Below, in pieces: positions 8,501 through 53,184 of a DNA stretch of 64,000 nucleotides. The number at the start of each line of letters is the position of its first letter. The first letter of the stretch is position 1. The notes under the pieces were generated by a model. It searched no databases. It had not been told where the DNA came from and saw only the letters and a list, made by a program, of their open reading frames with translations. This DNA comes from Thuidium tamariscinum. Lineage: Eukaryota > Streptophyta > Bryopsida > Hypnales > Thuidiaceae. The translations under genes were made by a program, and so were the position numbers. Location of the stretch: NCBI GenBank assembly GCA_947034885.2, contig OX344750.2:33218821-33282820 (forward strand), given 5' to 3'.

Positions 8501-8714
8501 CGTCCGACGTTTCAATGAGAGATTCAAGATCAGCGCCTAGTTTCTTCAAGAAGCCTTCTTCGCCAACTATCTCTCCACTGCGGCCACTTCCACTTCCACC
8601 ACCGCCGTCCTCCTCCGGGAGGGAAAGCCTGAGATCCGCCATGTCCGAAAAACACTCCACGACTTCCCCTGACTCAATTACCACTCCATAGGGTTCAAGA
8701 AACGCTCTCCACAA
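5510..8714 (-). CDS. NPR: NPR-family (NPR1/NPR3/4-like) BTB-ankyrin salicylic acid co-regulator
   Basis: Six exons on the minus strand: 8714-8142, 7785-7526, 7143-6998, 6845-6513, 6369-6109 and 5805-5510. All junctions are GT-AG, and the summed CDS is 1869 nt (622 codons plus stop), close to Arabidopsis NPR1. Exon 1 holds the BTB/POZ domain (YSDLSVIVEGKRVAVHRC) and a C2HC zinc motif (CYDAECAHLTC) followed by RPAIDYVLE. Exons 3-4 hold ankyrin repeats (ALDSDDVELVRML, GLHYAAAY, MTVLHVAAWRREP). The exon 4/5 junction gives LENR-VALARLLYP, the conserved Arg context that in NPR1 is needed for salicylate perception. Exon 5 contains VDLNEDP, like the EAR-type VDLNE motif of NPR3/NPR4. The C-terminus is basic and Ser-rich. 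Family role: nuclear co-activator or co-repressor with TGA bZIP factors in salicylate immunity. An alternative start at Met 8640 is possible. BOP-type paralogues lack this C-terminal region, so NPR1/3/4 type is preferred. Confidence 0.93.
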
Positions 8715-9130
8715 GAAAATGACGAGAAAAGCTTTGAAAAACTCTCCAATGGAAGCAAATCACAATCGCGAACCGAAGTCGAACACATTGTCGCGAAGAG
8801 CGGCAGTAGTGCGGATCTCATAAGCTTGATGAGTGGAAAGACCTGCCAAGGAATTTGGTGAACGAAGGGAAGTGAAATGCGTGGACTTGCTTTCTGCAGC
8901 AGCAAAGACGACGCTGCGAGGGCATGAATTGAGATGGGGGAAACAGGGCAATCTAAAGAGGCTTCGAAAGTAAACTGGCAGGGTGCAGAGCACCTGTGCT
9001 TCGAGGCAGGGACGCCGATGTTGCGGATTTCCACCGACCTGGTCCGCAACGAACGACCGGATCAGTGAAAAAAATTCTCTACTGAGTCCTGACCTAAATC
9101 GCTTCCAGTCGGGATTTCATGAAAGCCTGT
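8715..9130 (-). promoter_or_regulatory. Presumed 5' flank and leader of the NPR-family gene
   Basis: This is the sequence directly upstream of the NPR start codon. It is less AT-rich than the DNA beyond it (9130 onward), as expected for a transcribed leader. Overlapping minus-strand ORFs here (8678-9049, 8760-8993) have no recognisable domain and are probably leader shadows. I did not find a convincing TATA box or a TGACG cluster. Confidence 0.3.
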
Positions 9131-33744: not shown

Positions 33745-35033
33745 TCTGCACAAAACCAAAAATCAAAATTAATGATGGCCTTCGTTCCATACTCTATCAT
33801 GCGACCATTGTAGGTAGGTGCTGCTATTCCATTCTTCTTCAACTTGTTTATCTTAGCTCCACATTTCTTCTTCATTCCGACTTGAACTCCATGACAAGTC
33901 TTCCCTTCCTTCTTACACCTAGCAATGTGCCATAAAGAAGGGTTGCAGTCAGTTTCCACTATTTGGATAGCATGAGGACGTAGTGTACTTGGTCCTCCTT
34001 CTATTGGCGTTGGTGTTGATGCGCCTCCTTCAGTGCGTGCTCTAGTTGAGCGAGTCTCAACTCTAGGTGCTGAAAAATTCACAGTATCATGGCGGTGAGA
34101 GTCGCCATCTAATCCAGGTGGTAGATCCAATTTGTGCTTTGTAGAGCCAAATACTTCTTCACCTTCCAAGTGGGGGACCCTTGTTGTCAATAGGTCAGCT
34201 CCTGGTAGTTTTGCAATGGCCTCTGCAAACTTTGCTGGATCTTTTACACGTTTGGTAGCTCGAAGGCGAAGTTCATCCAAATGGGGACCAGTGCCAGATG
34301 CATACCCTTGGAGGTATGCCCAATAATTAGTCGATTGTTGAATTGCCCACATCATGTCATCTGTAGTGGCAACATACAAACAAGTTCCTCTCTTTCCAGA
34401 CATTTGTAGCCACTTGTTGTGAACTGTCTCTGCTAAGTTGCATGATGGCATTTCAGTTAGTTCTTCTAAGTTGAGTTTTTGCACAAATAACAACAATTTC
34501 AATTGCTAAGGTAAGGGCTCTTTGGTTCTGAAATGCCTCTTTCAAAAATTAAAAATAGAATACCAATTATTGATATAAGAGCAAATTCTATAAATGAAAA
34601 TTTAAAGAAACTAAATGAATGAAAACTTCATATCCATAATACTTGTCTATAAACAAAGAAGTTAAGCATTCATATATAGAAAATCAAAATGAAAGTGAAA
34701 AATCACTTACTAACTGCAAAAAGCCACCCCATTGTCGATAACAAAAGTGCCAGAAACCAAGCCAATCGTCTAGTTGCCGAATGGAGTCCTTTGATGCAGC
34801 CCTTGAAGATAGCCACCAACCCTTGATTCCCAGGTATCTCTCTTCTGCTTCTGCCATTGAGTTTGTATCCTTGTATTGTTTACAAAGCTTCTTGTGAGTT
34901 TCTTGGAGCTTTGGTCGAATGTGCTTCTCTGTATGTCTGTTCAGTGATGTCGTCCAATGAAGTAGACAAGAGCGCTCTTGATCTTGCATTGGCTCATGTT
35001 TGTTGCCACTTCCATATACCACACGAACAGCAT

Positions 35034-35037
35034 GCTA
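35034..35037. other. Target-site duplication GCTA, left copy
   Basis: GCTA directly abuts the left terminal repeat at 35038 and is repeated at 51887-51890 directly after the right terminal repeat. This fixes both ends of the 16.8-kb element and indicates 4-bp staggered integration. On the transposase strand the duplication reads TAGC and supplies a TAG stop in the host gene frame. Confidence 0.85.
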
Positions 35038-35055
35038 GGGTAGTTGCAAGAAAGG
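35038..35055 (+). repeat. Left terminal inverted repeat of the 16.85-kb element
   Basis: GGGTAGTTGCAAGAAAGG, identical to the inverse of 51869-51886. After the 18th base the two ends diverge (GTTTGGCG... versus CCTCACGT...). Confidence 0.9.
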
Positions 35056-35929
35056 GTTTGGCGTCACAATTGAAGTGACGGAGTTGGTATTGGTCATATG
35101 TTTTGGGGCGTGCAGCCTATACATTTGAAATTTTTATTGAAGATGAACAACTTTATAGTTATGAGATTCCTCATTTTTTTGTAATATACAAAATTCATTT
35201 TCTAATTAAAATTCAATTTAGCTAATTTGTCACACTTTGTGGTTTAGGGGTTTTTAGTACTGTGGGGTATGCAAAATGAATCATCTAAAGTTCAATTTCT
35301 TGTGGTCTATTCCCATGGTGGAGAGGCATGCACCGACCAAAAATCACTCAAAAAAAGTTTATATTTTGGCCCACACATGCGTGCAAATAGGGGTGCCTTG
35401 CGCGCGACATTATGAACATTGAAAATGGGTATTGTTTAATCACCCTAGCAATATGTCACAACACTTTGATGAACAGTAATTGCCAATTTTTAGTTTATTT
35501 TTATTCACTTTATTTGATTTATTAAAAATAAAAACGTAGAATGAAGCCTTTTCTGTGAAAAACTCAGACCCTGGCCGCTCTTAGTAGTGCGTGGTACTAC
35601 CGAGTACTACCTAGTACTGACACATGGGCCCACCTCTGGGGATTTCTGCCAATGCGTGCCAGGTGGACGCATTCTCAATCCTAACTTTGACAAGTCACCT
35701 AATTAAATCTCCATGTAGTGACGGCTCTTCATGGTAATTGAATGGGGAGGATAGACGTCAGACTTCATTTTTTTTGAATCCTTGATCCAATGTTGTGGCG
35801 GCTTAGGGTACGAAGTGCGATGCTTGCACTCTGGAGAGAACACAGATCAACCTGTGTGAAGTCCTTGCGAATGATTTCCAGAAACATGTACATGGTAGAT
35901 CGTAGTAAGCTTGATTGAAGTAACAGATT
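35056..35929. promoter_or_regulatory. Left sub-terminal region and presumed promoter of the transposase gene
   Basis: Non-coding sequence between the left terminal repeat and the transposase start. It contains a cluster of GTACTACC/AGTACTACC/TAGTACTGAC motifs at about 35588-35622 that match motifs near the right end and in internal spacers. These are candidate transposase-binding sub-terminal repeats. No TATA box was assigned. Confidence 0.4.
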
Positions 35930-38900
35930 ATGGAGAATGAGGGGGGCCGACGCCGCCGTGAACGTCCAAGGCCAGAGGTTCCTCTGGGTCCACGCACACG
36001 ATCGATGGAAACTGAAGCACGGTTGGCGGAACGTCGTCACAGAGTTGTGGAACGTCAACGAACAAGTCGAGCCAGGCGTGATCAATTAGTTGCTCTCGAT
36101 GACAGAGGGGAGACGGAGGCAGATCCTGTCGAAGGTAGGGAGGACAGCCCTGAGCGAGCTATACATTGAACAACAGTTGATCGGCATGCGGACCGCATTT
36201 CCCGCACATTGATTCAACAACTCCTTCGTCTAGACAATGCAGACCTTCGTGCTGCCGTTTTGCAAAGGGTTTTCAGTAATGTGTACATCCGGCTGCTACT
36301 TCCGGCGTATTATCCAAGGGCAGAGGATGCAAGATCCGAGCGTCAACTTCTGATGAACATCCGTGCAGAGTTGCAGCGAACCAAAAATCCACATTCTAGT
36401 GGTTTGTTGGCTAGGAAACGTTCTATCTTGGAAGTAGCTGTTTTAGAGATTGAGGCTGACTTCAGTAAATTCCATCGAATTCTTGGTACAAACAAGGTCA
36501 ACATTATTGGGGCCATTGATCGTGTACGCAATGCTTCTCCAACACAGTCCACCAGATTCGTCGTGCCATGTAGAAGAAAACGAGAAGGAGGCATTTCCGA
36601 TGCTGTCAAAATCGTGGTCACGACTTGGTGGACCACTGAGACCCGAGTCAACCCCAATAGGAAGGACATTCGGCGAAAGCGTTTAGGTCACAGTTTGTAC
36701 GACACACATCCTGCACATCTTCTTATGGAGACTCAGGTATTTTAAAAAACATGCTCTTTTGATCAATTTATGTATGCTTGTTTTCTTATATTCTAACATT
36801 TGCTACTATTCGCTATAGGGTGACTATACAAAAAACTGTATATCTTCTACTGTACCGTTACTATGGTCATTGCATACTAAATCACTTTTGCTTAAAGACT
36901 CAATCTTAGCTACTTTGGAGTGTGGTTTAGTGTATTGCCAATCACTACATGTCTTTTGCGGTGATTGTAACTTGAAGTGCTTTCCTTCTATTATTTGTTG
37001 TTCTGAACATTTTTCCTCCAGGCCTTGGTATTTTGAGTAACTAACTGCTACACTCTCTATTTGACTCTACAAGATGTACCATGTTATGTTCTTCAATTTT
37101 TGCACTAGTATTTTCTAATACATCTAAATGGACATATCAAGCACTATATCATTTCACTTAGTCCTCTCTATATTTCTAAATGATGTTTTCAGTACTACAG
37201 TGTACTATGCATCTTTGCAACCGAGTACTCGTAATATGGTAAAATAATTTATTGGAGTGCAATGCTTTTTTGATGCGTTTGTAGTACTTCATTTACCAGT
37301 ACTGATGGTGGTAAATTTTACAGTGTACTCCCCTTTTACCTTAACCATTACAACTAGTATGTGAAAGGACTACACATGTAGGTTTCAGTGGTAGATATGT
37401 TGCGATGCTATATTTAATAGTCTTACTTTTAGTGTTTATTACTGCTACTCAGTGAGTCAGTGTCTTAGGCGTGGTTCATAGTACTGAGGGCATAGTATTC
37501 CATTGGTATTTGTCTTACCCACAGTACACTAGAAAATGTTAGCTATATTTAGTGTACTATAGAGGACACTTGATGCCAGAAGAATTGCATATGCACATGT
37601 GTTCACCCTTAGTAAGTACTTCACTTGTCTTTTACAGTGCTAGAGGTCTTCTGCGGTACTAATTAGTACTACTTTGTACTATTAATTAGTATGAAGTTGT
37701 GGTACTAATGAAGTACTGCTTTGTAATACTAATTAGTACTAAGTTGTGGTACTAATGAAGTACTGGAACTACCTCAGAGCACTTTGTTTGTGCTCTTTGT
37801 AGTAGTATGTACAGTTCATAATTTTGTGGACGCCTCCAATTTTGGATAGGATCTACAGTGTCCTTTGTCACCATTGCTGGGTACCTTGACCATTAGTTTC
37901 AAGGAGTGCCACATGATTTAGTTTCTTCTGATGGTACATGTCAATGCCTACTGTTTTGCATGCTTCTTACGACAATGCGTGTTTTCTTGTGCAGAAACAA
38001 CTATATGACCGCTTCATACTAGCTCATCCAGAAAGCATCCTCATGCACCGATCTTTTGACAGTTTGCGCCCTTTTTTTGTAATCAGATGCAAAGAACGCA
38101 ACGTTTGTTGTTGTCAGTATCATGTGGAGGTTCTTTTCTTGCTGGAGGCCTTAAATGCCTTTCGAGATCCACTAACTGGTGCACACTTCATTTTCCAATG
38201 CGATTGTGAATGTGTGGTTTGTGGAGTAGACAATGCTGGTGTATGCCAGGCTGGAGAGAGTCGTTTCGGTGGAGTTACTGCAATGTGGGAGTCTCTGCTG
38301 TGTCCAAAATTGGACGGTGCAGAATTCCATACACCACAATGTCTGCTGGGAGAATGTAGCAGTTGTGGTGTTAATAACTTGAAGCTGTGTCCACTTGAAA
38401 GGATGGATGTTTTTGGGTTGAACATCAAGTGGAAGCAATTCCAGTATGAGGTTATTGGAACCACACCAGAGGGTAGGCCAAAGAAGCGGATTACAGAGAT
38501 CTCCCGGTCAACTCCATTCTCAGAGTTCCTCAATTTCTTTAAACCTACTGTGCAATGCTTCATACGACACAATTTTGAAGCGCGTTGGCAAGCAAATCAA
38601 GCCAAGCTACTTCAGTAATGTCTCCAACAGGGTACCATTCTTTCCCACATTGACTTTGCAGAGAACTACACTTTCCAAGTCCAAAATGAGATCCAAACCA
38701 TGTACTTCAGCTCTACACAAATCACTATTTTGGTTCAAGTTACTTACTACATCGCTTCAGTACCTGGGGATGATGCTGAGGCAATCGAACTTGTTCGGGA
38801 GACACATTACTACATCTCAGATGACCGGAGTCATGACACATTGTTTGTACAACATTGCCTCATGTTGCACTGGCGTTGGTTTACATCCAATCATTTCACA

Positions 38901-40493
38901 CCAAGCACACACTATGTCTTCAGCGACGGTTGTGCGGGTCAATTCAAAGGGGTTCGAGCATTGTTTTTTGCTGCAAGGTCAGACCATCTGAACTCAGTTT
39001 CTTTATACTTATATTGCTGTAACATTAACAAAGGATAGTACTTTTCATACAGTACTACTAAGTATTATCTACATACAACTTCTTCTAAACTAGTACTGAC
39101 AAGTGCTTCTATGATGCTTACTATTGTGTAGTACTGAATATTATTTTCGATGTATTATCTTACTATTATTTCTTACCGAGTATTATTTCCATAGTATTAC
39201 CTTAGTATTATTGATCACCAAGTATAATTTCCACAGTATTATCTTAATACTATAGCTCTCAAAAATATTTCAATAATAATTACTCTATACTATTGGTAAC
39301 TATAATTCTGTGGTGGCAAGCAATGACATAACACTTCAAATGTCCTGACTACTCTTGTTCTTAATGTTTTTCCCCCTCTTCAGATATCCATCATTGACTG
39401 GCGGGTGTAAAATGCTATGGAGTTTCTATGGGTCGGGACATGGAAAAGGCGAATGGGATGGTACTGGTGTTGTGGTGAAGAGGACATTGCGTGCTGAGCA
39501 ACTACTGAATCCTCAAAGGACTCTACAAAATGCCCGTCATTGTGTAACGTTCTTGGATGAAGCATTGGCTGGACAAGTTCCCAACACAGGAGATCGGATC
39601 AGGTGATATGCCCTCATTCATGGAATCATACTGTTTCACATTCTACTTTCACTATTGGAAATGTACTAAAATCAATTGGACAAACTGTTTGTTCTTATAT
39701 TTTCACCATCAAACCACATGCTTATAAAATCACAAGCACACAATCCTTATCTAACTGAACCTTTTGTGTTTCCACTCTCTTCTTATACAGGTCATACCGT
39801 CACTTCCACTATATTGGGATTGCTGATGTTGACCGCACAAACCTCCATTCTTGTGATGGACTACCTGGATCATCTAAACTACATTCTGTGTTTGCTCCTG
39901 ATAGAAATGATCCAACAAAGCTTCTTATCAGAGAACTTTCTTGCTTCTGTGGTCCCTGCTTAGAAGAAGATTTCAACCAGTGTGAAAATAAGTTGTACGT
40001 GAAACCATGGTCAGTTATAAAGCTTCAACCTCATGCTGCGGACTTTGCTCTTCCTACAGTAGATGTTGAGGAAGGAAAAGACATCTGGGATTGGGAATAC
40101 AATGAAAACAACATGGCTGACTTGGTCCAAGTAGGGGATAACTTTGCCGTCCCTACAGCTCTTGAAAATGATGAAGGTGTTTCTTTTTATGTACTGCAAT
40201 GCCAGTCTCCAAAACGAATTGTCACAGAAGCTTTCACTTGCCCTTGGGGAGGCGAATTTGAAGTTGGAGACTATGTTATAGCTGCAACGTATTATCAGAA
40301 GTGGGGTCGCAGAGAACTCCAGAACTATGTGTACTTGGCAAATTCTCAGATTGCACACGTTGATGCCACAATAGTCCTTGCCTGCAAATTCCAAATGCTT
40401 CCTCAACAGCATCGGGTGAAAGGTGGTCATCGTGTGTACTCACTACCTGATGAGACAGTTGATGTTGTGAACAGTGCCCTCGATTCCTTGTAA
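35930..40493 (+). pseudogene. DDE-type transposase-like gene with two nonsense codons
   Basis: Four exons: 35930-36736, 37995-38977, 39384-39602 and 39791-40493. All are GT-AG and phase-consistent, summing to 904 codons with the stop. The N-terminus is Arg-rich (MENEGGRRRRERPRPE). The middle has cysteine-rich, probably zinc-binding stretches (CKERNVCCCQYH; FQCDCECVVCG; LLGECSSCG). The catalytic-type core reads SHIDFAENYTFQVQ, then YVFSDGCAGQFKG, then GSGHGKGEWDGTGVVVKR. I recognise this as the widespread family with DF(A/S)ENY, SDG..(G/S)Q(F/Y)K and HGKG..DG motifs found in animals and plants, whose superfamily name I cannot give. Codon 80 is TGA (36167-36169) and codon 477 is TAA (38616-38618). 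Everything else is open, so the copy is recently or mildly disabled unless the stops are bypassed. It probably mobilised the surrounding element. Confidence 0.82.
37670..37765 (+). repeat. Tandem AGTACT-rich repeat in transposase intron 1
   Basis: The block ACTAATTAGTACTA...TTGTGGTACTAATGAAGTACTG occurs in tandem: TTGTGGTACTAATGAAGTACTG starts near 37698 and again near 37745. The 1.26-kb intron around it (36737-37994) holds many further AGTACT and TACTAAT motifs. No coding potential. Confidence 0.65.
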
Positions 40494-40509
40494 TTTCATC
40501 TAATTTGAT

Positions 40510-40587
40510 TTTACTCAGATATTTGATTGTCTTCCATCCTTTATAATTTTACTCAGATATTTGATTGTCTTCCATCCTTTATAATTT
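40510..40587 (+). repeat. 38-bp perfect tandem duplication just after the transposase stop
   Basis: The unit running from ACTCAGATATTTGATTG to CCATCCTTTATAATTTT is repeated immediately with a period of 38 bp (ACTCAG at 40513 and 40551). It lies in the presumed 3' untranslated region and looks recent because the copies are identical. Confidence 0.85.
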
Positions 40588-41432
40588 TGTTTCACTTTGA
40601 ACTTACTTCTGACTCACCTTGTATTTGTTCAAACTTCTTTGCATTTTCAAGTTATTTCATCAGTAGACATTGCAAAGACATGCCTCAATTAAAGGAATTT
40701 ATACCGTCATTTAGGAATCTATGAACCAGAACAAAAGAAAGCCTAAATGGAAAATTATACTTACATTGAGTCCCACAGAGACGCAGCTTAATCAAGACGA
40801 TGTATTGCCTTCAGGTGTAGTACTATGCGAGTACATGTAGTACTACTTAGTACTGATATAGTACTATGTTGACCACTATATCAACGACTTTCTACGAGAC
40901 TGTCACTAGTACTATGAAAGTTGCCAGAGTACTGGTCGATTGACAACACGATGGTCCAAGAAGATTGCAAACAAATGACCATCAGTAAAAAAGACTCTAG
41001 AAGAGTACCGTGAAGTACACATATAGTATAGCATATAAAATTCTCACAGAAATAGTACTGTGTAGAGGACTATTACCTTATATGAACATGGAGTTTATCT
41101 CAATTTTTTGCACAAAGTCCGAAAACTAATTGCGACACACTTGTTGAACACCAAGTATTGCATAAACTCTATGAATGCATTACTATGAGCACATTATATA
41201 TGTGCTAAAAAGACTACGAGGAGCAATTGCCTGAATTGTACAAGACTAAACAATATAGAATCAGTACTCTGTAGTAGTAGTCATTCACTAAAAAATAGAG
41301 ATCACTATTCAAGAAGAAAAGTGAGCATACAGAGGAACTTGATAATCATAGCAAAGTGTGCCAAGCTCACTAGAGATAGGCAACTCATTTTTTCAAATGG
41401 ATGCCTACACCCTTGAAAAGCTCTGTCACACT
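40588..41432. other. Internal spacer of the 16.85-kb element
   Basis: Non-coding and rich in AGTACT, TAGTACTAC and GTACTATG words (for example 40815-40930 and 41263-41285). No ORF of note. It separates the transposase 3' end from the small minus-strand ORF. Confidence 0.4.
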
Positions 41433-41798
41433 TTACTTGTTCCTGGCTCCTGCAACACAGCCTTCTATTGGGGATACAAGGGATATTTGTTTTGCCACAT
41501 CAGTACATTCTACCTCTGTTTTGTGTGAATCATCACTAAGACTTTTAGAGCACTCAGCATTGCTCCTCTCCACCTGGTCCCTCGAGGTAGTCCTTTGTGT
41601 CTCCAAAAACGGAGCACGTGGTTGTAGATCCACTGCACTCACAAATTCTTGGCCAATGCCAAAAGGAAGGTCCTCAAAGCCTCTCGAATTCTGCAAATGG
41701 CGCTTCTCACAGGATTCGTCCTCTTCGTCACTCCACATGACTCTTTTTTTTTGTCTTCTATGAAAAGGGGCTGCTCTCAATCTTTTGTGTTTTTCCAT
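41433..41798 (-). CDS. Small charged ORF of unknown function within the transposon
   Basis: A 121-codon minus-strand ORF starting MEKHKRLRAAPFHRRQKKRV and containing the acidic patch WSDEEDESCEK. It is basic at the N-terminus, hydrophilic throughout, and has no transmembrane segment or recognised domain. It sits downstream of the methyltransferase gene in the same orientation. It may be a separate short accessory gene, an unrecognised exon or chance. I do not recognise it. Confidence 0.35.
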   Translation of the reverse strand: MEKHKRLRAAPFHRRQKKRVMWSDEEDESCEKRHLQNSRGFEDLPFGIGQEFVSAVDLQPRAPFLETQRTTSRDQVERSNAECSKSLSDDSHKTEVECTDVAKQISLVSPIEGCVAGARNK

Positions 41799-42765
41799 GC
41801 GGGCACTATTTTATTTTATTGAACAGATGTCTGATCTTGGAAGCAACAATTAATAGACAAGTTAGGAAATTATAACGCATTTGAATGGGTCTATATGCAA
41901 ACTAACAAGCCCATGCCCCCCCCTAGAGAAGGCAGTTCCTTAGTTGAAGAAGAGGAAAGTATCAGAAGCAGGAATTTGTATGGGAAAACGAAAATAAAAT
42001 TTATGGCAAGCGATTATAGTAGGCATCGTTCTATTTTAAAGTGCATTGAACTACACAAAGTTCCTTCAAGCCTGTCATGCAATCCAAAAATGAAGGTATG
42101 CTAAGATTATAAGAAAGTATCACCCTACAATATGCAAAGATTACAAAACTTCTCACAGAAAGAGAAGTGCAAGAAATGAATACAAACCTGAGAATGAATC
42201 AAACTTTGTTGTTCCACGCCAATTGGGCTTATACGCCAAACGCACAACTACAAGATTCCCTTTGCAATTGTACGTCCAAGCCACGGTCATGTCCTTTGCC
42301 GTAAACCGGATGCCGCATCAACTGTTGCAATACAAAGACTAATTGCGCTGAACAAGAAGACTACTCTCTTTACTGAAGTCGCACAGGAAATTGCAAACTC
42401 CAGCCTAATTCATGAACCACTCGGAAAAATTCAGCACTAAAAAAAAGTCATGAATCTTAGAGCTCAAGGTACTTTGTCTAGCAGTAATGACAATGCCACC
42501 CTAAACCCATATCACAACCACATGCTGGCCAATATCTTGCTGTGATTCCTGCAAAAAACAAAGACTGTAGGCTGATACACATCTTAGGATGGCGAAATCT
42601 AGTAAAGGACCTGACAGCCAAGTGGTTTAGGGTCACGCTCCAAGTGTAACTGTACCACTGCATGCACTAGTCACCCATGTGTGACAGTCTCTTCAATACG
42701 ACCACATGTCATTTCAGCAGAACATCTTCATTTTGATCAATGGCCCAAGATTCATCTTGAGAACG

Positions 42766-43012
42766 TTCTATAGTACTTTCTGTACTTGTAATACAAGTAG
42801 TATTCACCCTGCCAAAATAAAAAATGAAACAAATACAACAAGAGAAAATTCTATAGTACTTCCTGTACTTGTAATACAAGTAGTATTCACCCTGCCAAAA
42901 TAAAAAATGAAACAAATACAACAAGAGAAGGTTCTATAGTACTTCCTGTACTTGTAATACAAGTAGCCAAAACCCTGCGAAAATAAAAAATGAAACAAAT
43001 ACAACAAGTGTT
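42766..43012 (+). repeat. 83-bp tandem repeat, three units, each with a 17-bp palindrome
   Basis: TTCTATAGTACTT begins at 42766, 42849 and 42932, giving a period of 83 bp. Each unit contains TACTTGTAATACAAGTA, a perfect odd-centred palindrome, then an AAATAAAAAATGAAACAAAT stretch. The first two units are almost identical and the third diverges in its centre (AGTAGCCAAAACC instead of AGTAGTATTCACC). The repeat lies between the methyltransferase stop and the small ORF. The short ORFs here only reflect the repeat. Confidence 0.92.
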
Positions 43013-43556
43013 GCTTGTAATGACCCTGTATTCTCTATTCTAGCATCCATTCAGAAGTGGTTTTGCTTCTTGATACTAGTACAAAAGCATTCAACAGACA
43101 CTGTTCAGGACTCAATGGTCAAGACTGCTATGTATGGTAATCCAAATAAAATTTGATTCTTCATATTAGCTTTTGAGAATAGTACCAAATGTTAATATTA
43201 TCTACTGAAATACTATTTTTGCAAGCTCTAAACTGAATTTTCAAGTTTTATTTGTATAGTAGTGGGAACATGCTATATCTGTCTAGTATATTGAACTCTT
43301 TCACTAATTTGAAACTCTACATTATATCCAACTGTAAATGAACTGGGTCTACCTCTACATGTTGTAGTTCTATGTTCATAATATTTACAAATACACATAC
43401 AATACATTGTTGTAATAGGTATCAGTTTTTAGGGCTATTACCAAGTAGATAGCAATGCCTTATTCAAAGTACTGCAAAGTACTAGAACCAATATCTCCTT
43501 GGAAGGAATTGTAATTCCTTCTCTGTATTGAGTATACACTCGTAAGCTTGTACTTG

Positions 43557-46500
43557 TCAGTTTCCTCTACATTGCCTGCTCCCACAGTCGCACCTGAATG
43601 GAATTGGATGTTCATCAAAGTCTACGCTATAGTCCCATGTCAGCTCCTCCCCTGCTTTTATTAAACGATTTGCAAAAAACGCCACCTAAACAAGATCAGT
43701 AGAACACTGTTATTATAGTTAGCCATAACAGTGTTCAGCCAAGTAATGCATACAAATTAACCCTAAACCCTCCATTCCAAATGGTCTATCATAAATATTA
43801 CTGTATACAAGGTTAATCAAGACATTTATCCAAAGCATGTGACCATTTCATGCAAGGTTTTAGTACTTGCATGATACAAAGTTGGATGCCTGTGGGTAAT
43901 CCAAACTGGCATCTCTATAAGATTCGCATCTCCACATCTGCATAAATAGTCATTGCAAATTCAATATTGTACCACCTATATAACAATTGCTACAAATGCG
44001 GTAACATTGACATGAAGGGTATTTGGAATTGCAAAAATACCTATGATTCAACCAGCGGCCTACGTTGGCTATCATTGTCGCATCAATGCAGAGTAGTGAA
44101 TTGTCATCTTTATGTGCCTCTGACTCCCAGTCAGCATCCAGAGCGACGGAATACTTTGACCGATCACCTCTTTGGAGCAGCTCAGCATTTGTAACCACTT
44201 CCCTAACATATTCAAAAACAAAAGTGCCACGTGGTACTACCTCTAGGGTGCGAATGCCCCAACCTTTATACTTACTTACGTGAAACACCTGAAAACCAAT
44301 GCAATATGATAATTTTAAATAATTTCCAACCATAGCAATAGATAGAAACGGGGAGGACAAGTTCAGGTTCATGGTCCTCTCACCTCCAACTTCACCGTGA
44401 TTCCTCTTTGGACTACCCTGTTCGGACAATCAAGAGGACATTGACAGTTTCTGTTGCACTCCCTTATATACTGCAAGGGAACATGTCCATCACACCGTCC
44501 GCTCTTTCTTTCCGTGTAGTTGGAAATGTCATTACAATACACAAACCGTGTTGTACAGCCCGTTTGTCGTTTCAAAAACTGCATACTTGCAAACCTTCCA
44601 TCCAATTAGTACTGCTCCACGGTACTAACGCAGTACTAAGTACTACAGGAGTAATACTGAGGGTGTTAGTGGACAATACTTCAACAAGTATTATGAATAC
44701 TACAATAATTGAAATTAGGATTTTAGTTTTGACTCACTGTTGTGGAGATGCAAAGTTGCAGAGCTACTTACCATGAAGCAATGAAATTGGCAGAATTTAT
44801 GCTTGTTGTTTCAATTGAAAAAGGGATCACGAGAATGAAGTAGTCTTATGAGATACCTGACTTATGTAACGAGGGTGGAGAAGACCATTTGATACGTAAT
44901 GCCTTTTTTCATCACCAAGGTGACAACAGCATGCATTGCCAAAGTCTGTGCATGTGCCCTGACTTTTGCAATTGTTTGCCGTGCTCCCCAGATGAGTTGA
45001 ACAAAAACCTTCAACATTAACTGAAGCGTGGATTCCAGAAGACCGCACATATGTGTATGATTTCTCAAGAACATGGTCAGCGTTTGAGGCATCACCCTCA
45101 TTAACGCGAATGGGGACAGTTTCTAGACCTCTAGACACGTCTATGTCATTGGAATGTAGAAGTCCCTGTTCAAAGCAACGCATCATATACAGGCACTAAA
45201 CCGCCATAGAGAAGCCAAAATTTGATTACAAAATGGGTAGCACTAGTGGATTCAGTACATGCACTTTGCTTTCCAAGAAGCATAGTCTAGTTCTGTCTAA
45301 AAAACTAAAAGGATAAATACATATCGTTTGTCAAAACACCGCACAAAAAGTTGGGGACTCTAGCATCTGATTTAGAGAACCGGGCCCTTCTGTGGTGACG
45401 CATGACCAATGCTAATTTTGTGGGCCGGAATGGCTAGCTCAAGACAGCTGTCCTAGTTGGTTCCCACGAGTTGCCCGTGAGAAATCAAGCACTCCATTGG
45501 CCCACAGTCATGTCCACAGAAATGTCATTGCCCTCCTCCGTGGCTTAAATTATAAATAGACGATCCAATTCAAGAAGCATAAACTAGCCTAAGGTGACTG
45601 TCCTCCATGGGACTATAGTGGACTGTCATTATAACCACAAGATCCAAGTCATATTCAAACACATGGAGGAGGGCAATCCTGATTGCAAGTACAAGACTGT
45701 GTCCACATTGAAGAACTCACAGGAATGCGGATGTCACTTGTTTCTATGACCCACCTTTGTTTTTTTGGATATGGAACTGACAACAGGACTCGATGAAGCA
45801 TTCTCTGCAACTGTGATTCCTGTACTATGTCGACCTCGCAGTACCCTTCCAGATCTATCTATAGTAGAGGCCTCTTGAACAATTGTGTCTTTCTTTGGTC
45901 CCTTACCTGAAACAAATGAAATTGGGTGAACTACAGTATTGCATTCTAGTCTTTTGAACGCAAGACTGAATAAAAGGAAAATATCGTCCAAAAATACTAA
46001 AGAGGTCATCTTATATACTAACTAAGTAGACAATACATTAGCTAACTTGGAGAATGATATAAATCATCATGCTTTTACATGCCAAACAAGAATGGAACAT
46101 ACATGAAGTTAGATGCATCCAAAGGAAGCGCAATTGATTCCGGTAGTACCTTTTCCGGGGATGGACACTTGGGGCAACTCAATTCCACAGCTTCTGTCAT
46201 CCTGATTTTGCTCTTCAATTGGTGTAGGTGGAAGCACTATGGTGTCTGGAGCTTTCTTCAAACATTTTGATGACCGCTGAAAATTTATGGAATAAGGATC
46301 CTCTGCAATGCCACCGACACTCTCCTTTGGAGGAGATTCATTTTGTGGTGATGCAGGAGACACCTCCACTATCGTACTTGGGCTCTCCGTAGTCTGAAAC
46401 AGCTTGTGTATGAGAGAGTGATGAAAACGAAGGCACAGTATAAGCCATCGCATAGAATTCTAGGAGTTGCATGCGAAAGAGAAGAAGACATTACAACTGG

Positions 46501-49500
46501 GAGACATACAAAACCCCCTAAACTGCCACTAATTTATGAAAAAGGATAAATAGTAATTGGAACTTACCGTTCTAGTTGTTATCATTGAAGTACGATTGAG
46601 ATCAAGGATGTCTAATGCTTGGCTCACTGATTTCTGAAGTTTAGAGCTGTTTGATTCGCTTAGGAGAAGAGGATCATCAGGGTGCATTGCAAAAAAGTCC
46701 TTCTCAAGAAGAAGTGGATCCACCTCCTCCATTTGCACTTGGCCCACTCCTGCATTGTCCACTTCCCCAGCAACGGGGGCTTCATGTTGCTCTTGAACTT
46801 CGGTTAGGACTCCTTCCATTGGGTGCACTTCTTCTAACGGTGCTTTGTTCAGAGGAGAAGAGAATTGGACAGTGCTATGGTCGTCATGTTCAGCAACTTC
46901 TGCACTTGTAAGAAGACTCTGTAACAAAGGGGGTGTCTCCAGTGTACATGTGACAGAGCACAGTTTCTTCATGTTGCTAGATGGAGTGGAAACTTCAGAG
47001 TTCAGACCCAAATGCAGTGCATGAAATGTCAACCTCAACGGCTGCAGTCGTTGGAGTGAAATCAGAGCCATCAGTGCATCTAATTTGATCCTTTGGGAGG
47101 CCTAATGCTCTTCCTTCGCCTAGACATTTTGATAAGGTACTATCACATGCAGACATACTGGGAGCCCCTTCATGTCCTAGAAGAGAACCTGCACAATAGA
47201 CGATCAATGGAGTATTAAAATGTAGTAGTAGACACAGTCACTCATAGAACTAACTTTGTACTCCTACAAATCAAATCAGTTGACATCTTACAAAGACAAC
47301 AGCAAAGCTTGAAATAAGTTCTAGTACTACAAAGTATTTTCACTAAAAATTATGAAGAGGAAGTCATTAGACTAAATATATAAGGTACTACAACAGAACT
47401 TTACTAACTGAAATGGGGGCTCACAAATGACTACCTAGTAGTACTGTATAGAGTACTATAAGTTATGTCTGTAGTATTGGACAACAACATGCAATTGTTT
47501 TCATTCAATACACTACAAGGCTGCAAATATTGAGTACTACCAAGTCCTGCTCTAGCACCAATCCAGTATTTAAAGTATGATAATCAATGAAGACAATACT
47601 ATATTTTAATATGTATGAAGAAAACTTTGTGTGAGAAGGAAAACACTGATGCAATATGAAATAACAATTTCATAACAAGAAATTACAAATTCAAGGATGA
47701 CTTCTTAGTTAAAATGCTGCATTACCTGAAGTTGTCTTAAGCTGTCCTGACATCGTTTCCGCAGCAGCTGCAGTAGGTACAGTACTCGTGTGCATGTCAC
47801 CACTAAGTCCTTCCAAAATTTTGTCATATTGGCCGAATCCCCAACTGTTGTACCAATGTGGGGCCACCAATCCACACTCAAGAACTGCACACTTGACACT
47901 TGTTTTGAACCATTGCACTGCACACCAAGGATGATAAACGTGCTGGCAGAGGCAGAGAATGAAGTCCCAAAACGGAAATCCACCGAAACAAATAGAACAA
48001 CACAAGGTAGGGAGAAGAACTGGTTGCGCTGTGTTGAGCACCAATAACTCTTCATTGTAGTATACAGGTAGTGGCCGCATCACCACTGTATCCTTCCCTG
48101 ATGCTAGCTCCAGCAAATATATTCGTAGCGCAGCAAGACGATGAAAGATTGCTTTGATGGTCGTTGATGTTTCTTGGACTTCAGTTTCCAATGCATTCTT
48201 TCTAGTAGAGAATTCAGTAAGTCTCTTGACGTTGGAGTAGTACATTTTCAGTATAGGCCCTATTCCAATTTGCTGAGTGGAAACCGCAATTTCTTCTTCA
48301 CTTGCAAATTCATTACAATCGTGGCCTGCCTCAACAAGAGAAGCCTTGAATTGCTCAACCAGATGGAAGCAAGCTTCCCATTGGACAACAGCTTGGGCTA
48401 CCTTAGCCTTCTTCTCGTTCAATTCGTCCTCATTGTGATGAAGCTGGGTCTCCAACTTCTGCAGTAGATCAGTGACTTCCGTTTTCCTACAACACAAGCC
48501 CAGAAGAGCCCATCAGCAACTTCGGTCTAGTGGGGTACATAGCTGAATAGTAACTAGTACCACAAACAATTCGTAGAAGCAAAGAAATGAAGGACTATAA
48601 AGAAATTAATAATACTGCAAGACTTCTATACTACTGCACCAAACTACATGTAGTACTCCACAGTACTCCATAAGTGCAAAGCCACCCCACAGTTGTATTA
48701 GTAAACAGTACTATACATGTTATGGAGTATAAATAGTACAACAAAGTGCTTAAGTGCTAAATCTATGAAATGAAGTCTCTAGTACATGACAACATGCAAT
48801 ATCTAGTACTATTAATATTGGTAGATTGATCACATAGGACAACATAATAGTACAAATATGATAGGCAAGGTTCCATCACAGTATTAAGTGCATGTGTGAA
48901 AACTTCAAGTACAAACAAAGTCCTAAACCAATGCATAACATTTAAACATTAGTAGAGGAAGAGTCTCCACATGATAAGTTTGACCACTACAAAAGAGTAC
49001 TAGAAGTTGAACATACTACAGTTGCAGCAACACAGTATACTATGAATGCCCCAAAACTCAGGAATTGCTTAGTTGTAATACTAAAGATTGTTAGTAGTAT
49101 AGATTTGAAGCACATATAGTACAATACATGATGCTTGCTTACAAACATAGTGAATGGGATTAATTTTTTTTCCAAATTCATTGATAATCTCAATAATGTA
49201 GATGGCATTTACAAACAAGACATCTACAAATGAAAAACGTCCATGCTACAAGCAATTCCAATAGATGGAAAATAATACCTGGCAGCCATGAGTTCAGGGA
49301 CGTCACTACTTTGATTTCCTTGACCTCTAGTGAATGAAGGCATTTCTTTCTTGAATCTGCTTTGCAGTTGTTTTAGAGAGTCGGCATTCCCTACGGAGAA
49401 CCTCTCAAGTCGTGTGTCTGCATGCATGTCGAAGCCTTCCTTCTCATAGACGTCAGCCACTGGAATATTCAACAGTGCAGCCAAGCGTTGGATCCATACC

Positions 49501-50382
49501 CTCACGCGTTGACGGTAGGAATTCCACTGTGCAATATTAGTTCGGCTGCGAATTCCACCCAGTTGACTTTCTCGTGACGGACAGCATGCAAGACAAACCC
49601 AATAGCAAATTCCTTTGCTACATGTGTAGCTGGATAAGGTTTTTGGTAGCATCGGCAATACAACTTTTCCGCTTCTTCTCGAAGTGTGGAAGTAAGCTTT
49701 TCCCCCAAAGAGAAGCCATTCCTAGCTTTTTCTTCTCCAAAAACCCGTTCCACTTCCTCTAGAGTAATGTGTTTTCCAATCTTCATTTTGTGGCTGTTGG
49801 TTCCCTCATTTGGAAGATTGAACACTTCAGCAAAATGCAAGGCAGTCATCACCGGGGGGGGGGCTGCTTATCCTCCGATTTCAAAGCAGCCAATTGCTTT
49901 CGGCAGTCGGACTCGATGTGTGGTCGTCGTTTCTTTCTGGTGAGTGAGCCCTTCTTCGAGGGGGTTCCGCTTGTGTCGAGGTTATCCTCACTGTCAGCAT
50001 CACCATCAGAATTGCCGTCACCAGCAATAGCGTCCTTGGCAGTACCTTCAGTCCCCGAGGATGAGCTCTTTGTCCTTGCAATAGAGGTTGAATCCTTCTT
50101 TCGTGCACTATCACCCTTCTCCTTTCCAGATCTACTAGGCCCGGTCAAAGCAGAGGAACTGGAGTGCAGAACTTTGCGTTTCTTCTTCTCCGTTGGCAGC
50201 GTTGAGGTTGGTGGAGGCGGCATCGTTGATGTAGGCTTAGTTGTACTGGTCTTCTTGGCAGAAGTAATTGGAGTAGCTTGACGGTTGCCAGCACTGTCAT
50301 TTGATCCTTCCTGATGAGGTGCAGCATTTTCTAACCCACCTCGTCGATTCACAGGAGTTTTCTTCATTTTTCCCATTGCCAA
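43557..50382 (-). CDS. Transposon-borne SUVR-like histone H3K9 methyltransferase with N-terminal coiled coil and RING-like region
   Basis: Ten exons on the minus strand: 50382-49279, 48486-47726, 47188-46568, 46393-46150, 45906-45755, 45165-44857, 44578-44384, 44288-44041, 43937-43871 and 43685-43557; phases agree at every junction. Exon 1 encodes a basic, Ser/Thr-rich tail with KKKRK and RKKRR signals, then an unrecognised helical domain. Exon 2 encodes a coiled coil (about 110 residues) and a RING-like cluster (CCSICFGG...LCQHVYHPWC). Exon 6 has the SUVR-type lead NDIDVSRGLETVPI and pre-SET cysteines (CCCHLGDE). Exon 7 has RECNRNCQCPLDCPNRVVQR. Exons 8-10 form the SET domain (KGWGIRTLE, GRWLNHR-CGDANLIEMPV, GEELTWDYSVDFDEHP) and post-SET CDCGSRQC. 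AdoMet-binding and catalytic motifs are all present. Exons 4-10 give 448 intact codons. Three apparent frameshifts affect exon 1 (C-run near 49851; near 49540) and exon 3 (near 47000). The exon 9 donor is GC. The WIYLD domain of typical SUVRs is absent. Confidence 0.85.
47727..48485 (-). other. Coiled coil plus RING-like zinc cluster (exon 2 of the methyltransferase gene)
   Basis: The exon begins KTEVTDLLQKLETQLHHNED and continues as a heptad-like, charged helix to about residue 120. It is followed by a cysteine/histidine cluster: CxxC (CSIC), then CxHxxHxxC (CQHVYHPWC), then a C(x5)C pair (CAVLEC). The spacing of the first two ligand pairs matches RING-H2, but the last pair is not the usual CPxC, so E3 ligase activity is uncertain. 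It is spliced in frame to the rest of the gene (phase 2 in, phase 1 out). Confidence 0.6.
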
Positions 50383-51868
50383 AACTTGAAGGCAGCCGTC
50401 CTATCTGTGTACAAAAACAATGGCATTAGTTGATCATGCCAAATAGTGTTAACACTATAGTGAAAATGAGCAAGAGCACATAAAGGTTTGTCATTCTAGA
50501 CAATTGAAGGTAATCCATATCTAAAAGCACATTGTCTCGTTTTTAAATGAATTTTATTTAGTACTATAAAAAACTTCCTAACCCACAAGAATAATGTAAA
50601 AAGAGTCTAAGATAGTTAGTAAGACATAAATCTCCATCCATCTCACCTATATTATTACTAGTACAGCAAGTAAAATTCAAGGTATTCCATCTACAAATGT
50701 GTTGCAACAGCACATTAATTCTGAACAAAATCAAAAAAAGGACAAATGATGGCTAAACCTGTCTAGTACCTAAAGCGGATACAACAGAAAGGCTTATTGT
50801 GCCCCAAATTGTTGTAAAAGGAAAAAGCATGCATTCATGGAAGAAACTTCAACAACATATACACACTCATATTTACAGTGCGCCATTGTAGTAATTAGAA
50901 TTGCTAATGGACAACAAGACAGCAAACCATGTGCAACAAGTGCGGCGAATGCCACAGCGATAGAGACTTCGTGCAGGTTTGAACTGAACCCTAAATTGCT
51001 AATCTTTACTGTTGTTCACAGTTTGTTGGCACTAACTAGACCCTAAAACCTAAACCGCTTAGAGTTGTAAATCGCACAAAAGAACATGACAAGAGGACAT
51101 GAGAACTTACCGAATTGGAGCTGCCTTTGTTCCCAATTGGACAATTATATCAGCTGGTGATATCCGTAGCCCCCCTGCAACATCGCCACTGCCACAGCTC
51201 GTCGCCTCTCCGATCTGACCACCCATTCATGGGTCAATCTTGGTCATGTTTGAATGTGCAGCTCAATCTCAACCAATGCTAAAAACTCCCAGCAGCAAGT
51301 ATATGAACCCTAAATCGTAATCTGTTGTTTACAATTAGTACACTCGTCTCCCTGTAGCAACACCAACACTGTGAAAGTAGTCCATACACTCCGACGCCCT
51401 TGACATTGAACACCCTCTCCACCTCTCCCGCGGAAATTTCAAAACCAGAAACTCACAAAAAAAACGGAGGACAAGCAAATCGGGAGAGACGACATTCAAC
51501 GTCTGTCATCCACCAGTTTCCATCTAAAACATCTTTGTCAACTCTTCATCCAATCCAATCTAGATGAATGAAAAATCAATGAATGGAGCCGGCATGAGCT
51601 TGATATGATAAATCACCAACGACATTACTTCCCCTGCATTCCACGTGTCAACATTAGCATCGAAGGTCAAGAATTAAATTGAAGCAATTGGGCGACCGCA
51701 TTCATAGCCGGGACTGCATTTCCAAGACACTTGGCAGCATCAGAAAGAATCCACAGTATGATCAACGGCCCACAGTGAATTCAAATTCCCCTTTGTAGTA
51801 CTCATAATACTCAAAGTACTGAACACCAAAAACCCTGTTTTTTCCAAAACGAGACAAAAAACGTGAGG
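50383..51868 (-). promoter_or_regulatory. 5' region of the methyltransferase gene and right sub-terminal region
   Basis: Non-coding. It contains three telo-box-like motifs: AACCCTAAA at 50987-50995, ACCCTAAAACCTAAACC at about 51040-51056 and AACCCTAAA at 51306-51314. In plants AAACCCTAA boxes occur in promoters and bind Myb-type telomere repeat factors that can recruit Polycomb. AGTACT-type words recur near the right end (51796-51825). No TATA box was assigned. The ORF at 50837-51046 has no support. Confidence 0.35.
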
Positions 51869-51886
51869 CCTTTCTTGCAACTACCC
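51869..51886 (-). repeat. Right terminal inverted repeat of the 16.85-kb element
   Basis: CCTTTCTTGCAACTACCC, the exact inverse of 35038-35055. It is directly followed by the GCTA duplication at 51887-51890. Confidence 0.9.
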
Positions 51887-52592
51887 GCTAGTTGGCCATT
51901 GCATTGTCAGCCATGAAACCTTTGAAATTTGGTGATGAAATTCCATGGCGCGCCATTACAGAGTTAAAGGATCGCCACATTTGCTCTTGTGATTGAGCGT
52001 CCTCGCTCATCATGTCACAAACACATATAGTTTGGACTCGACAAAACTCAGAGTCATAGACATGGGTAGCCATAGACGTCCATCCTTTTACCCTTTTCAC
52101 ATGATCAAACATACACCAAGAATTCTGTAAGTCTCCACCAAGTTGCGTATGCCTAACCAAATCCACCCCGCTTCCTAGACCTTCCTCAGACATTTTGAAA
52201 AGATAAACCTTATCCTTCCTTTGGCCTAGGAATACACTATCTTGAATAAAAGAATATGTGCTTCTCATTTTTAATGACATAATGTTGTCAATGGGTCCCC
52301 CACTTGTATTGTGATGAAAAGTAGAAATGGTATTTCTTATACTTGGTGAGTTGAGTATCCGAAACTTCTCCATGACTGCTTCTAAAGCCTCTCCGCGAAG
52401 GGGCTTCAAATCTCTTTGCAACCCATCCTCACAAAATAACTCAGATGCTAGAAACTCTTTACTAGCAGCAAGACTAATGGCCGAATTGATTGCAGATGGT
52501 GTTTTAAAAACCTGCTGACCAATCAGAGATGTTGTTCGCTCAACAGAATCATGACAAATGCCCCTACCTACAGGATGGTTGTGATGGCCAAT

Positions 52593-53184
52593 TGTTGCGG
52601 ACGGCAACTCTTGGATGGAACCAAGATCAGAATTGAGGGGAAGCCTCAAACAAGGACAAGATTGAACTAAAAGTGAGGGGATTCCTCACAAGTGCCTCAA
52701 ACTACAACTCAAAGTGAGAGAATTAGAAGATGTATTGATAACAAAAAGTTAATACAAGACTAGGGTACAACTGGTGTTGAAGAGAGTGAGGAGCAACGGC
52801 CCTCAACTCTCTACTTATACTAGATTTATGGAAACTTCCGGAGTAAGGTCCTAGAGACCTTAGGAAGCACCTATGGAACCTTCCGGAAGCTTATGGAGGC
52901 TTCCTGAATCTAAAAAGGTCAAGCGGAACCTTCCGGAAGCTTATGGAGGCATCTAGACTTGGATGGAAGCTTCCGGAAGTTTGTTGAAGCTTCCGAAAAC
53001 TACAAGAACTATACGGAAGCTTGTGGAAGCTTCCGGAAACTATAAGAATTATCTAGATACTAGTTGAAGGTTCTAGAACCTTCAAGAAGTTACTATAAAC
53101 TACTAACCACTAATACTATACCATTATAGGTCTCACGGGAATCCGTAGAGTGTGGATGAAGTCCGATATGGTACATCCGTGACA
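52593..53184 (-). mobile_element. Solo LTR, 592 bp, with heat-shock-element array, TSD ATTGG/GTTGG
   Basis: On the minus strand it starts TGTCACGGA and ends TCCGCAACA, the usual TG...CA short inverted ends. The flanking 5-mers are CCAAT (52588-52592) and CCAAC (53185-53189), a 5-bp duplication with one transition. Removing the LTR and one duplication restores ACIHVG-HHNHPVG in the surrounding transposase. A TATA motif (TATAAGTAGAGAG on the minus strand, plus coordinates about 52808-52820) lies downstream of a 260-bp U3-like segment packed with heat-shock elements, and R/U5-like sequence follows. No internal retroelement genes remain, so this is a solo LTR formed by LTR-LTR recombination. Copia or Gypsy class cannot be decided. 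Confidence 0.88.
52826..53090 (-). promoter_or_regulatory. Array of heat-shock elements (nGAAnnTTCn) in the LTR U3
   Basis: Perfect alternating pentamers are visible: GAAGGTTCTAGAACCTTC followed by AAGAA at 53066-53088 (five units: GAA, TTC, GAA, TTC, GAA at exact 5-bp steps). GAAnnTTCnnGAA occurs at 52876-52888, 52926-52938, 52966-52978 and 53026-53038, and GAAnnTTC at 52986-52993. Trimeric or longer inverted pentamers are the binding site of heat-shock transcription factors. All lie upstream of the LTR TATA motif on the minus strand, as promoter elements should. Confidence 0.88.

Follow-up and report, generated by a model that had tools for sequence, protein, structure and literature searches.

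A RING-SET gene of SUVR type moves together with the transposase of a DNA transposon lineage in the moss Thuidium tamariscinum

We analysed 64,000 nucleotides of Thuidium tamariscinum DNA (assembly GCA_947034885.2, contig OX344750.2, positions 33,218,821 to 33,282,820), hereafter the window. It contains a DNA transposon with two convergent genes. One encodes a transposase. The other, the RING-SET gene, encodes a RING-like half joined to a SET module of the SUVR type, a putative histone methyltransferase. Across very diverged lineages in this genome, transposase, RING and SET move together as a near-invariant pair of genes. We conclude that the RING-SET gene is, with near certainty, an integral and selected component of the transposon lineage.

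We searched the window's own genome (363 Mb, 19 contigs). The transposase gave 91 matches in 55 loci; a first look scored 55 of 640 candidates. For SET, 150 of 186 matches were listed, and joining same-strand matches within 20 kb left 115 loci. The RING exon gave 150 matches, from a search that scored 150 of 253 candidates. All counts are therefore minimum figures, biased towards the better matches. A SET match lies within 25 kb of 54 of the 55 listed transposase loci, and all 54 pairs are convergent. When the transposase loci were placed at random on the same contigs (1,000 runs), any SET neighbour was found for 1.25 of them on average and for 6 at most. Likewise, 99 of the 115 listed SET loci have a same-strand RING match upstream within 25 kb (random mean 0.75, maximum 5; 500 runs). 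A convergent RING match was found within 35 kb of 50 of the 55 listed transposase loci, the other five being compact or divergent elements. The lone locus with no listed SET match (C1:53491146) is probably not a case of a copy lacking the SET gene, as it still has a convergent RING exon 4.8 kb away. No listed transposase accompanies 61 listed SET loci. The RING exon is upstream in 50 of these; 11 have neither, and some of the 11 may be host genes. Compact elements share the association, and their transposase match is unbroken over about 630 residues. Outside the window itself, transposase identity to the window copy is 34 to 98% by match. This spread argues against the loci being segmental duplications of one locus. 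An earlier sequence-only reading of the window had proposed that the element may have captured a host silencing enzyme. The convergent pairs place the SET gene within the transposon. A recent capture is not borne out, since the gene is an old, selected component of the whole lineage.

The element is bounded by terminal inverted repeats (TIRs) and a target-site duplication (TSD), within an interrupted reading frame:

35038..51886, no strand, whole element
35034..35037, no strand, TSD GCTA, left copy
51887..51890, no strand, TSD GCTA, right copy
35038..35055, plus strand, left TIR, 18 bp
51869..51886, minus strand, right TIR, 18 bp
34684..35034, minus strand, interrupted flanking reading frame, downstream half
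51888..52685, minus strand, interrupted flanking reading frame, upstream half
42759..43008, no strand, three 83-bp tandem repeats with AGTACT in each

As the sequence-only reading had stated, the 18-bp TIRs are perfect (0 mismatches) and GCTA is present on both sides. Identity between the TIRs stops after base 18. The TIR has two matches in the window, against a shuffled mean of 0.05, and two matches were seen in 0 of 100 shuffles. The same reading saw a host gene resuming on either side. An empty site with a single GCTA does give one minus-strand frame across about 215 codons, but its single TAG lies within GCTA. Hence, the target frame was broken before insertion and the target was non-functional. 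The interrupted gene thus looks already dead, and was perhaps itself a mobile element; a Pfam search of the window frames gave no convincing match for it.

TIR-like 18-mers with up to three mismatches number 5,289 in the genome, against 341 for the reversed pattern. We cut out 30 loci with an exact TIR. Short derivatives similar to both ends of the window element account for 17, and L023 is similar to the left end only. Ten are palindromic miniature inverted-repeat transposable elements (MITEs) of about 1,088 bp; two of these elements entered the count with each of their ends, and L016 belongs here in part. Two (L015, L030) led to long elements. Copies C7 and C5 were picked as facing exact-TIR pairs 10 to 30 kb apart. 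With the window element, five long copies from three diverged lineages could be bounded, the other four being:

C7:26278128-26295385, copy C7, 17,258 bp, TSD AGTT, 98.5% identical to the window element over 16,795 aligned bases
C5:9485714-9511179, copy C5, 25,466 bp, perfect TIRs, TSD ATCA
C1:32828486-32854592, copy D1, TSD TGTG, TIRs with 4 mismatches
C2:29863455-29885151, copy D2, flanks AGCC/AACC, TIRs with 4 and 3 mismatches

The TSD is exact in four of the five, and D2 has one mismatch. Long copies without the SET gene, which the sequence-only reading had named as evidence to the contrary, were sought; all five bounded copies carry it, convergent to a transposase. An independent insertion of the SET gene, or an assembly join, was ruled out by the other long copies and by an AGTACT signature common to both halves of the element. 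By match, C5 is 84 to 91% identical to the window in the transposase and 42 to 80% in the SET gene. D1 and D2 are about 97% alike over shared stretches; their identity to the window is 64 to 67% in the transposase and 34 to 69% in the SET gene. Two short non-autonomous types are abundant in the TIR family, namely two-ended derivatives of about 0.7 kb and the near-palindromic MITEs of about 1,088 bp. Both are also nested inside D1 and D2.

The RING-SET gene has ten exons:

49279..50376, minus strand, exon 1, KKKRKV-containing N-terminus; frame breaks at a C-run (49854-49863) and near 49550; single-frame in D2
47726..48486, minus strand, exon 2, coiled-coil-like part and RING-H2-like finger
46568..47098, minus strand, exon 3, linker; acceptor position inferred from frame
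46150..46393, minus strand, exon 4, linker
45755..45906, minus strand, exon 5, linker
44857..45165, minus strand, exon 6, pre-SET
44384..44578, minus strand, exon 7, second half of pre-SET
44041..44288, minus strand, exon 8, SET; Arg replacing a conserved Gly at 44202-44204
43871..43937, minus strand, exon 9, SET, followed by a GC-AG intron
43557..43685, minus strand, exon 10, ELTWDY and post-SET

This gene had been described as ten exons ending in intact pre-SET, SET and post-SET domains. The ten exons stand, and exons 6 to 10 are open. The word intact nevertheless overstates the case. At the YxG motif the window reads EYVRE, and 62 of 62 homologues have Gly. One pre-SET Cys position has Ala in the window and Cys in all 59 aligned homologues. 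Exon 1 has its two frame breaks. A frameshift suspected in exon 3 was ruled out, as an alternative acceptor site accounts for the frame. The exon 1 C-run has 10 bases in the window and C5 and 9 in C7, all out of frame, and D2 reads through. This suggests a slippage hot spot or a frameshifting site.

Assignment of the module to the SUVR type was confirmed. Pfam calls SET at 1.4e-17, the Pfam Pre-SET family itself not being called. Aligned and placed in a tree with plant SUVRs, the element SET rows cluster with three plant rows in a single group (support 100/100). Pre-SET, SET and post-SET with NHRC and ELTWDY are shared with plant SUVR1/2/4. In contrast to these proteins, the element protein has a RING-like N-terminal half, and the Pfam WIYLD family gave no match in exons 1a, 1b, 2 and 3 (E up to 1) or in exons 3 to 10 (E up to 0.1). 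The only relative reported for the RING half was P0126 (E up to 0.001, among the 7,987 candidates sharing most words). It ends about 75 residues past the RING, near an intron position of the window gene. Hence, P0126 neither shows nor excludes a following SET exon. Scans of viral contigs with the TIR and P0126 gave no lead.

Four exons sharing a single frame make up the transposase gene, and two stops lie within that frame:

35930..36736, plus strand, exon 1, in-frame TGA at 36167-36169; Arg codon there in C7 and C5
37995..38977, plus strand, exon 2, first two conserved Asp; in-frame TAA at 38616-38618, CAA in C7
39384..39602, plus strand, exon 3, third conserved Asp, in GHGKGxxDG
39791..40493, plus strand, exon 4

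The three Asp (DDD) are kept in 63 of 63, 61 of 62 and 62 of 63 aligned rows. The third conserved acidic residue is thus Asp in 62 of 63 rows, while a Glu two residues earlier is found in only 24 of 63. The predicted core is RNase H-like: the first Asp falls on strand 1, the second follows strand 4 and the third is part of the last helix. The transposase drew no Pfam match, with E cut-offs of 1 for the window exons and 0.1 for P0001. Relatives of the transposase occur in bryophytes, conifers and Klebsormidium. Scans of viral and genome contig collections with the transposase alignment gave no lead. Mutator-like elements (MULEs) have TSDs of 7-12 bp according to the available part of one paper (PMC10741241). 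The window element departs from these in its 4-bp TSD and its DDD transposase lacking a Pfam match. For Sola elements, that part describes a DDD transposase, a 4-bp TSD, lengths to >15 kb, TIRs of 11-1124 bp and occurrence in moss, and it mentions neither SET nor RING cargo (PMC10741241). The DDD transposase and 4-bp TSD are both found here, and the placement follows from these described features. We therefore regard a cut-and-paste, two-gene, DDD, 4-bp-TSD lineage resembling Sola as fairly probable, a judgement made jointly with the overall explanation below.

Selection was assessed as the ratio of nonsynonymous to synonymous substitution rates (dN/dS; Nei-Gojobori), excluding codons with stops or gaps. 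Between C7 and C5, dN/dS is 0.147 for transposase exons 2 to 4, 0.219 for the SET module and 0.122 for SET exons 8 to 10. It is 0.348 for the RING exon and 0.56 for linker exons 4 and 5. The window and C7 are too similar for the measure (RING exon 2.3, on a single synonymous change). SET exon 8 was compared at 14 loci, and 17 of the 91 pairs had more than 60 codons and dS of 0.05-1.5. The seven pairs at dS 0.3-1.5 have a median dN/dS of 0.10 (maximum 0.12), a figure that loses weight in that they amount to about two independent comparisons (window and C7 with C5 and C6; three loci with C2:5.31M). Close pairs reach 0.44 and 0.50. Of 26 rows, 25 retain ELTWDY. For the YxG Gly the figure is 23 of 28 rows, with some loci represented by as many as three rows; the residue is missing in the window (three rows), in L050 and in L064, which is D1. 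We conclude that both genes are under purifying selection, with dN/dS of about 0.1 for the SET core between lineages. With its core conserved, the protein is unlikely to be a mere decoy, although the Arg seen repeatedly shows that a conserved residue has been lost in some copies.

The second conserved feature, which the sequence-only reading had not reported, is the palindrome AGTACT. The 10,408 bp of non-coding DNA in the element contain 46 copies of it, the 6,441 bp of exons a single one and the 47,151 bp outside 14. The motif is ninefold denser in the element than outside. In 300 dinucleotide shuffles of the non-coding part its count averaged 4.25 and never exceeded 12. Sites lie in the introns of both genes, in intergenic DNA and near both element ends. 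When non-coding hexamers are ranked by enrichment over the rest of the window, AGTACT and the overlapping GTACTA take the first two places in each of the five long copies. Aligned non-coding DNA of the window and C5 is 74.6% identical, and AGTACT is in place at 24 of 39 sites. Other hexamers are in place at 1,694 of 8,680 sites (0.195). A test of the 124 hexamers having 12 or more aligned sites sets GTACTA (30 of 55, 1.1e-8) and AGTACT (1.3e-8) well apart from the next (2.3e-3); these p-values are optimistic because sites in the tandem repeats are not independent. The same comparison with D2 has one aligned site only. AGTACT sites in introns and intergenic DNA thus appear to be kept by selection.

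The motif could serve splicing, promoter use or a host factor, or reflect local mutation bias, and not be an address at all. Some sites do lie in the tandem repeats, and two long-type 3-kb pieces have no AGTACT. However, hexamers of the same composition are in place at only 96 of 510 sites, and the motif spans both genes' introns, the intergenic DNA and both ends. We consider a non-address role rather doubtful.

Taken as a whole, the evidence is best explained by a two-gene DDD transposon with its own RING-SET chromatin writer, possibly acting on its own copies. We find this moderately probable. Judged by its sequence, the RING-SET protein would be an active lysine methyltransferase that sets the chromatin of the element's own copies. 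The enzyme would be brought to the element by a reader of AGTACT, which could be the transposase, a host factor or the RING-SET protein itself. The logic would be that of the anti-silencing system VANDAL/VANC, with an enzyme as effector. Methyltransferase activity is probably needed; we lowered our confidence in this slightly because D1 also carries Arg. That the element's own copies are targeted through AGTACT may be so, at a little short of an even chance. A more tentative proposal is an obligately bipartite lineage of plant transposons. Every family would be equipped with a histone methyltransferase and a cis address of its own, AGTACT in this case and different motifs in others, and would write the chromatin of its own copies in a sequence-specific way. 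Such a system would have evolved apart from VANDAL/VANC, with RING replacing WIYLD.

As to the direction of the effect, we lean slightly towards escape from silencing rather than self-restraint. The enzyme could convert H3K9me1 (monomethylated lysine 9 of histone H3) to H3K9me3 in place of CMT3-linked H3K9me2. As a guess, the RING finger, standing in WIYLD's place, might supply ubiquitin itself. SUVR4 takes H3K9me1 to higher states and binds ubiquitin via WIYLD, in the part of a review available to us, which conflicts with itself on the role of ubiquitin (PMC7218100). By its title, a 2026 paper treats H3K9me3 as a mark that is permissive during seed germination in Arabidopsis (PMC13017857). 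This would fit escape.

Several observations weigh against this explanation. All five long copies are damaged in at least one gene, and the window copy in both, with its transposase stops and the frame breaks in exon 1 of the SET gene. In C7, transposase exon 1 has a 272-bp insert and exon 2 a stop; its SET gene has the out-of-frame C-run and a stop in exon 3. Both genes of C5 contain stops, and exon 7 of its SET gene has a 4-base gap. D2 has stops in RING and SET exons. In D1, stops interrupt transposase and RING exons, and the Gly position is occupied by Arg. The same Gly-to-Arg exchange in the YxG motif is seen at three SET loci in all, namely the window, C1:2576308 (L050) and C1:32843335 in D1 (L064). 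This recurrence suggests a repeated G-to-A change or relaxed copies. The damage is not shared throughout. C7 keeps the Gly, lacks the window's TGA, TAA and Arg, and is in frame at the break near 49550. C5 also keeps the Gly and lacks all three. D2 keeps the Gly, reads exon 1 in a single frame and, where its transposase aligns, is free of stops. The compact group counts against the explanation in other ways. It has ELTGE-like motifs in place of EYxGE. In the best tree, two compact rows group with plant SUVRs (82/81); a single element clade is not rejected (approximately unbiased test, p-AU 0.162). The common RING association favours a single SET capture for compact and long elements. Of nine 3-kb loci from the compact group, eight have no AGTACT and L068 has one; the two long-type pieces, L047 and L057, have none either. 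Hence, the motif is not universal in the superfamily. Finally, dN/dS speaks to sequence constraint and is silent on the methylation target.

Three other accounts of the RING-SET gene were weighed. In the first, self-restraint, the element lays a repressive H3K9 mark on its own copies via AGTACT and so limits damage. The SET core is preserved by selection, and SUVR4, according to the available part of the review, works on transposon chromatin and takes H3K9me1 as its substrate (PMC7218100). However, competition among copies would not readily favour self-silencing, and the family is very successful, as the excess of TIR-like places indicates. We judge self-restraint unlikely. In the second, the RING-SET protein acts in transposition or on a non-histone target, for instance by methylating or ubiquitinating the transposase, and AGTACT is a putative transposase-binding site scattered over the element. 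The two genes co-occur and both diverge between lineages, and AGTACT is also found near both ends. The SET module nevertheless groups with SUVR proteins, whose studied member, SUVR4, acts on H3K9, and we hold this account to be improbable. The third, a neutral or recent Pack-MULE-like capture with the SET gene as functionless passenger, could draw on the window gene's frame breaks and its Arg for an invariant Gly, on stops in other copies and on the relaxed linker exons, but the convergent orientation repeated at 54 of 55 listed transposase loci and the SET-core dN/dS of about 0.1 between lineages leave it very little room and, barring segmental duplications of one locus, largely refute it.

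SETMAR also brings a SET domain and a transposase together, as a host fusion gene of one transposase; here the two form a mobile two-gene unit. VANDAL elements are MULEs, and we know of no SET domain in VANC. VANDAL/VANC is an anti-silencing system of Arabidopsis for which motif binding and loss of DNA methylation have been shown, as far as the available parts of the sources go (PMC5735166, PMC10398659). It shares with our element a transposon-encoded protein acting on chromatin (putative here) and a short motif dense in non-coding DNA. VANDAL families differ from one another in motif (PMC5735166, in part). The VANDAL motif lies in tandem repeats, whereas AGTACT does so only partly. The VANC21 motif YAGTATTAY resembles AGTACTA.

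SET cargo has precedents outside plants. HarbingerS and MuDR transposons of Phytophthora carry a SET histone methyltransferase gene (Kojima and Jurka 2014, cited in PMC12730594). These too are DNA transposons with a SET methyltransferase gene, but they apparently belong to other transposase superfamilies, and their host is an oomycete, and the part of PMC12730594 available mentions neither a RING fusion nor an AGTACT-like motif. The same part describes TET/JBP genes in many fungal DNA transposons of several superfamilies. There, too, a chromatin-modifying enzyme stands beside a transposase, but it is a DNA dioxygenase and not of the histone-methyltransferase type. None of the listed titles and abstract openings, from a literature collection without subscription journals and Repbase Reports, describes a SET-bearing plant transposon. 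This agrees with the earlier statement that no plant family with such cargo was known, with the reservation that SET cargo as such was already known in oomycetes. New here are the host kingdom, the transposase lineage, the SUVR-type RING-SET protein, the near-obligate linkage and the conserved address-like motif.

Transposons are usually viewed as objects of H3K9 methylation. In this lineage a putative SUVR-type writer has been kept through deep divergence, and the chromatin conflict between host and transposon becomes directly testable. The element also explains a large expansion of SUVR-like SET sequences (at least 115 loci, 99 with an element-type RING exon upstream), which gene annotation could mistake for host silencing genes. 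Contig C11 holds 11 of the 55 listed transposase loci, each paired with SET, along with 17 of the 115 listed SET loci, the last listed match lying at about 17.3 Mb. This contig may be a sex chromosome or some other chromosome rich in repeats. Elsewhere in the window, positions 8097-8759 hold a reading frame with a BTB/POZ domain (PF00651, 4e-7).

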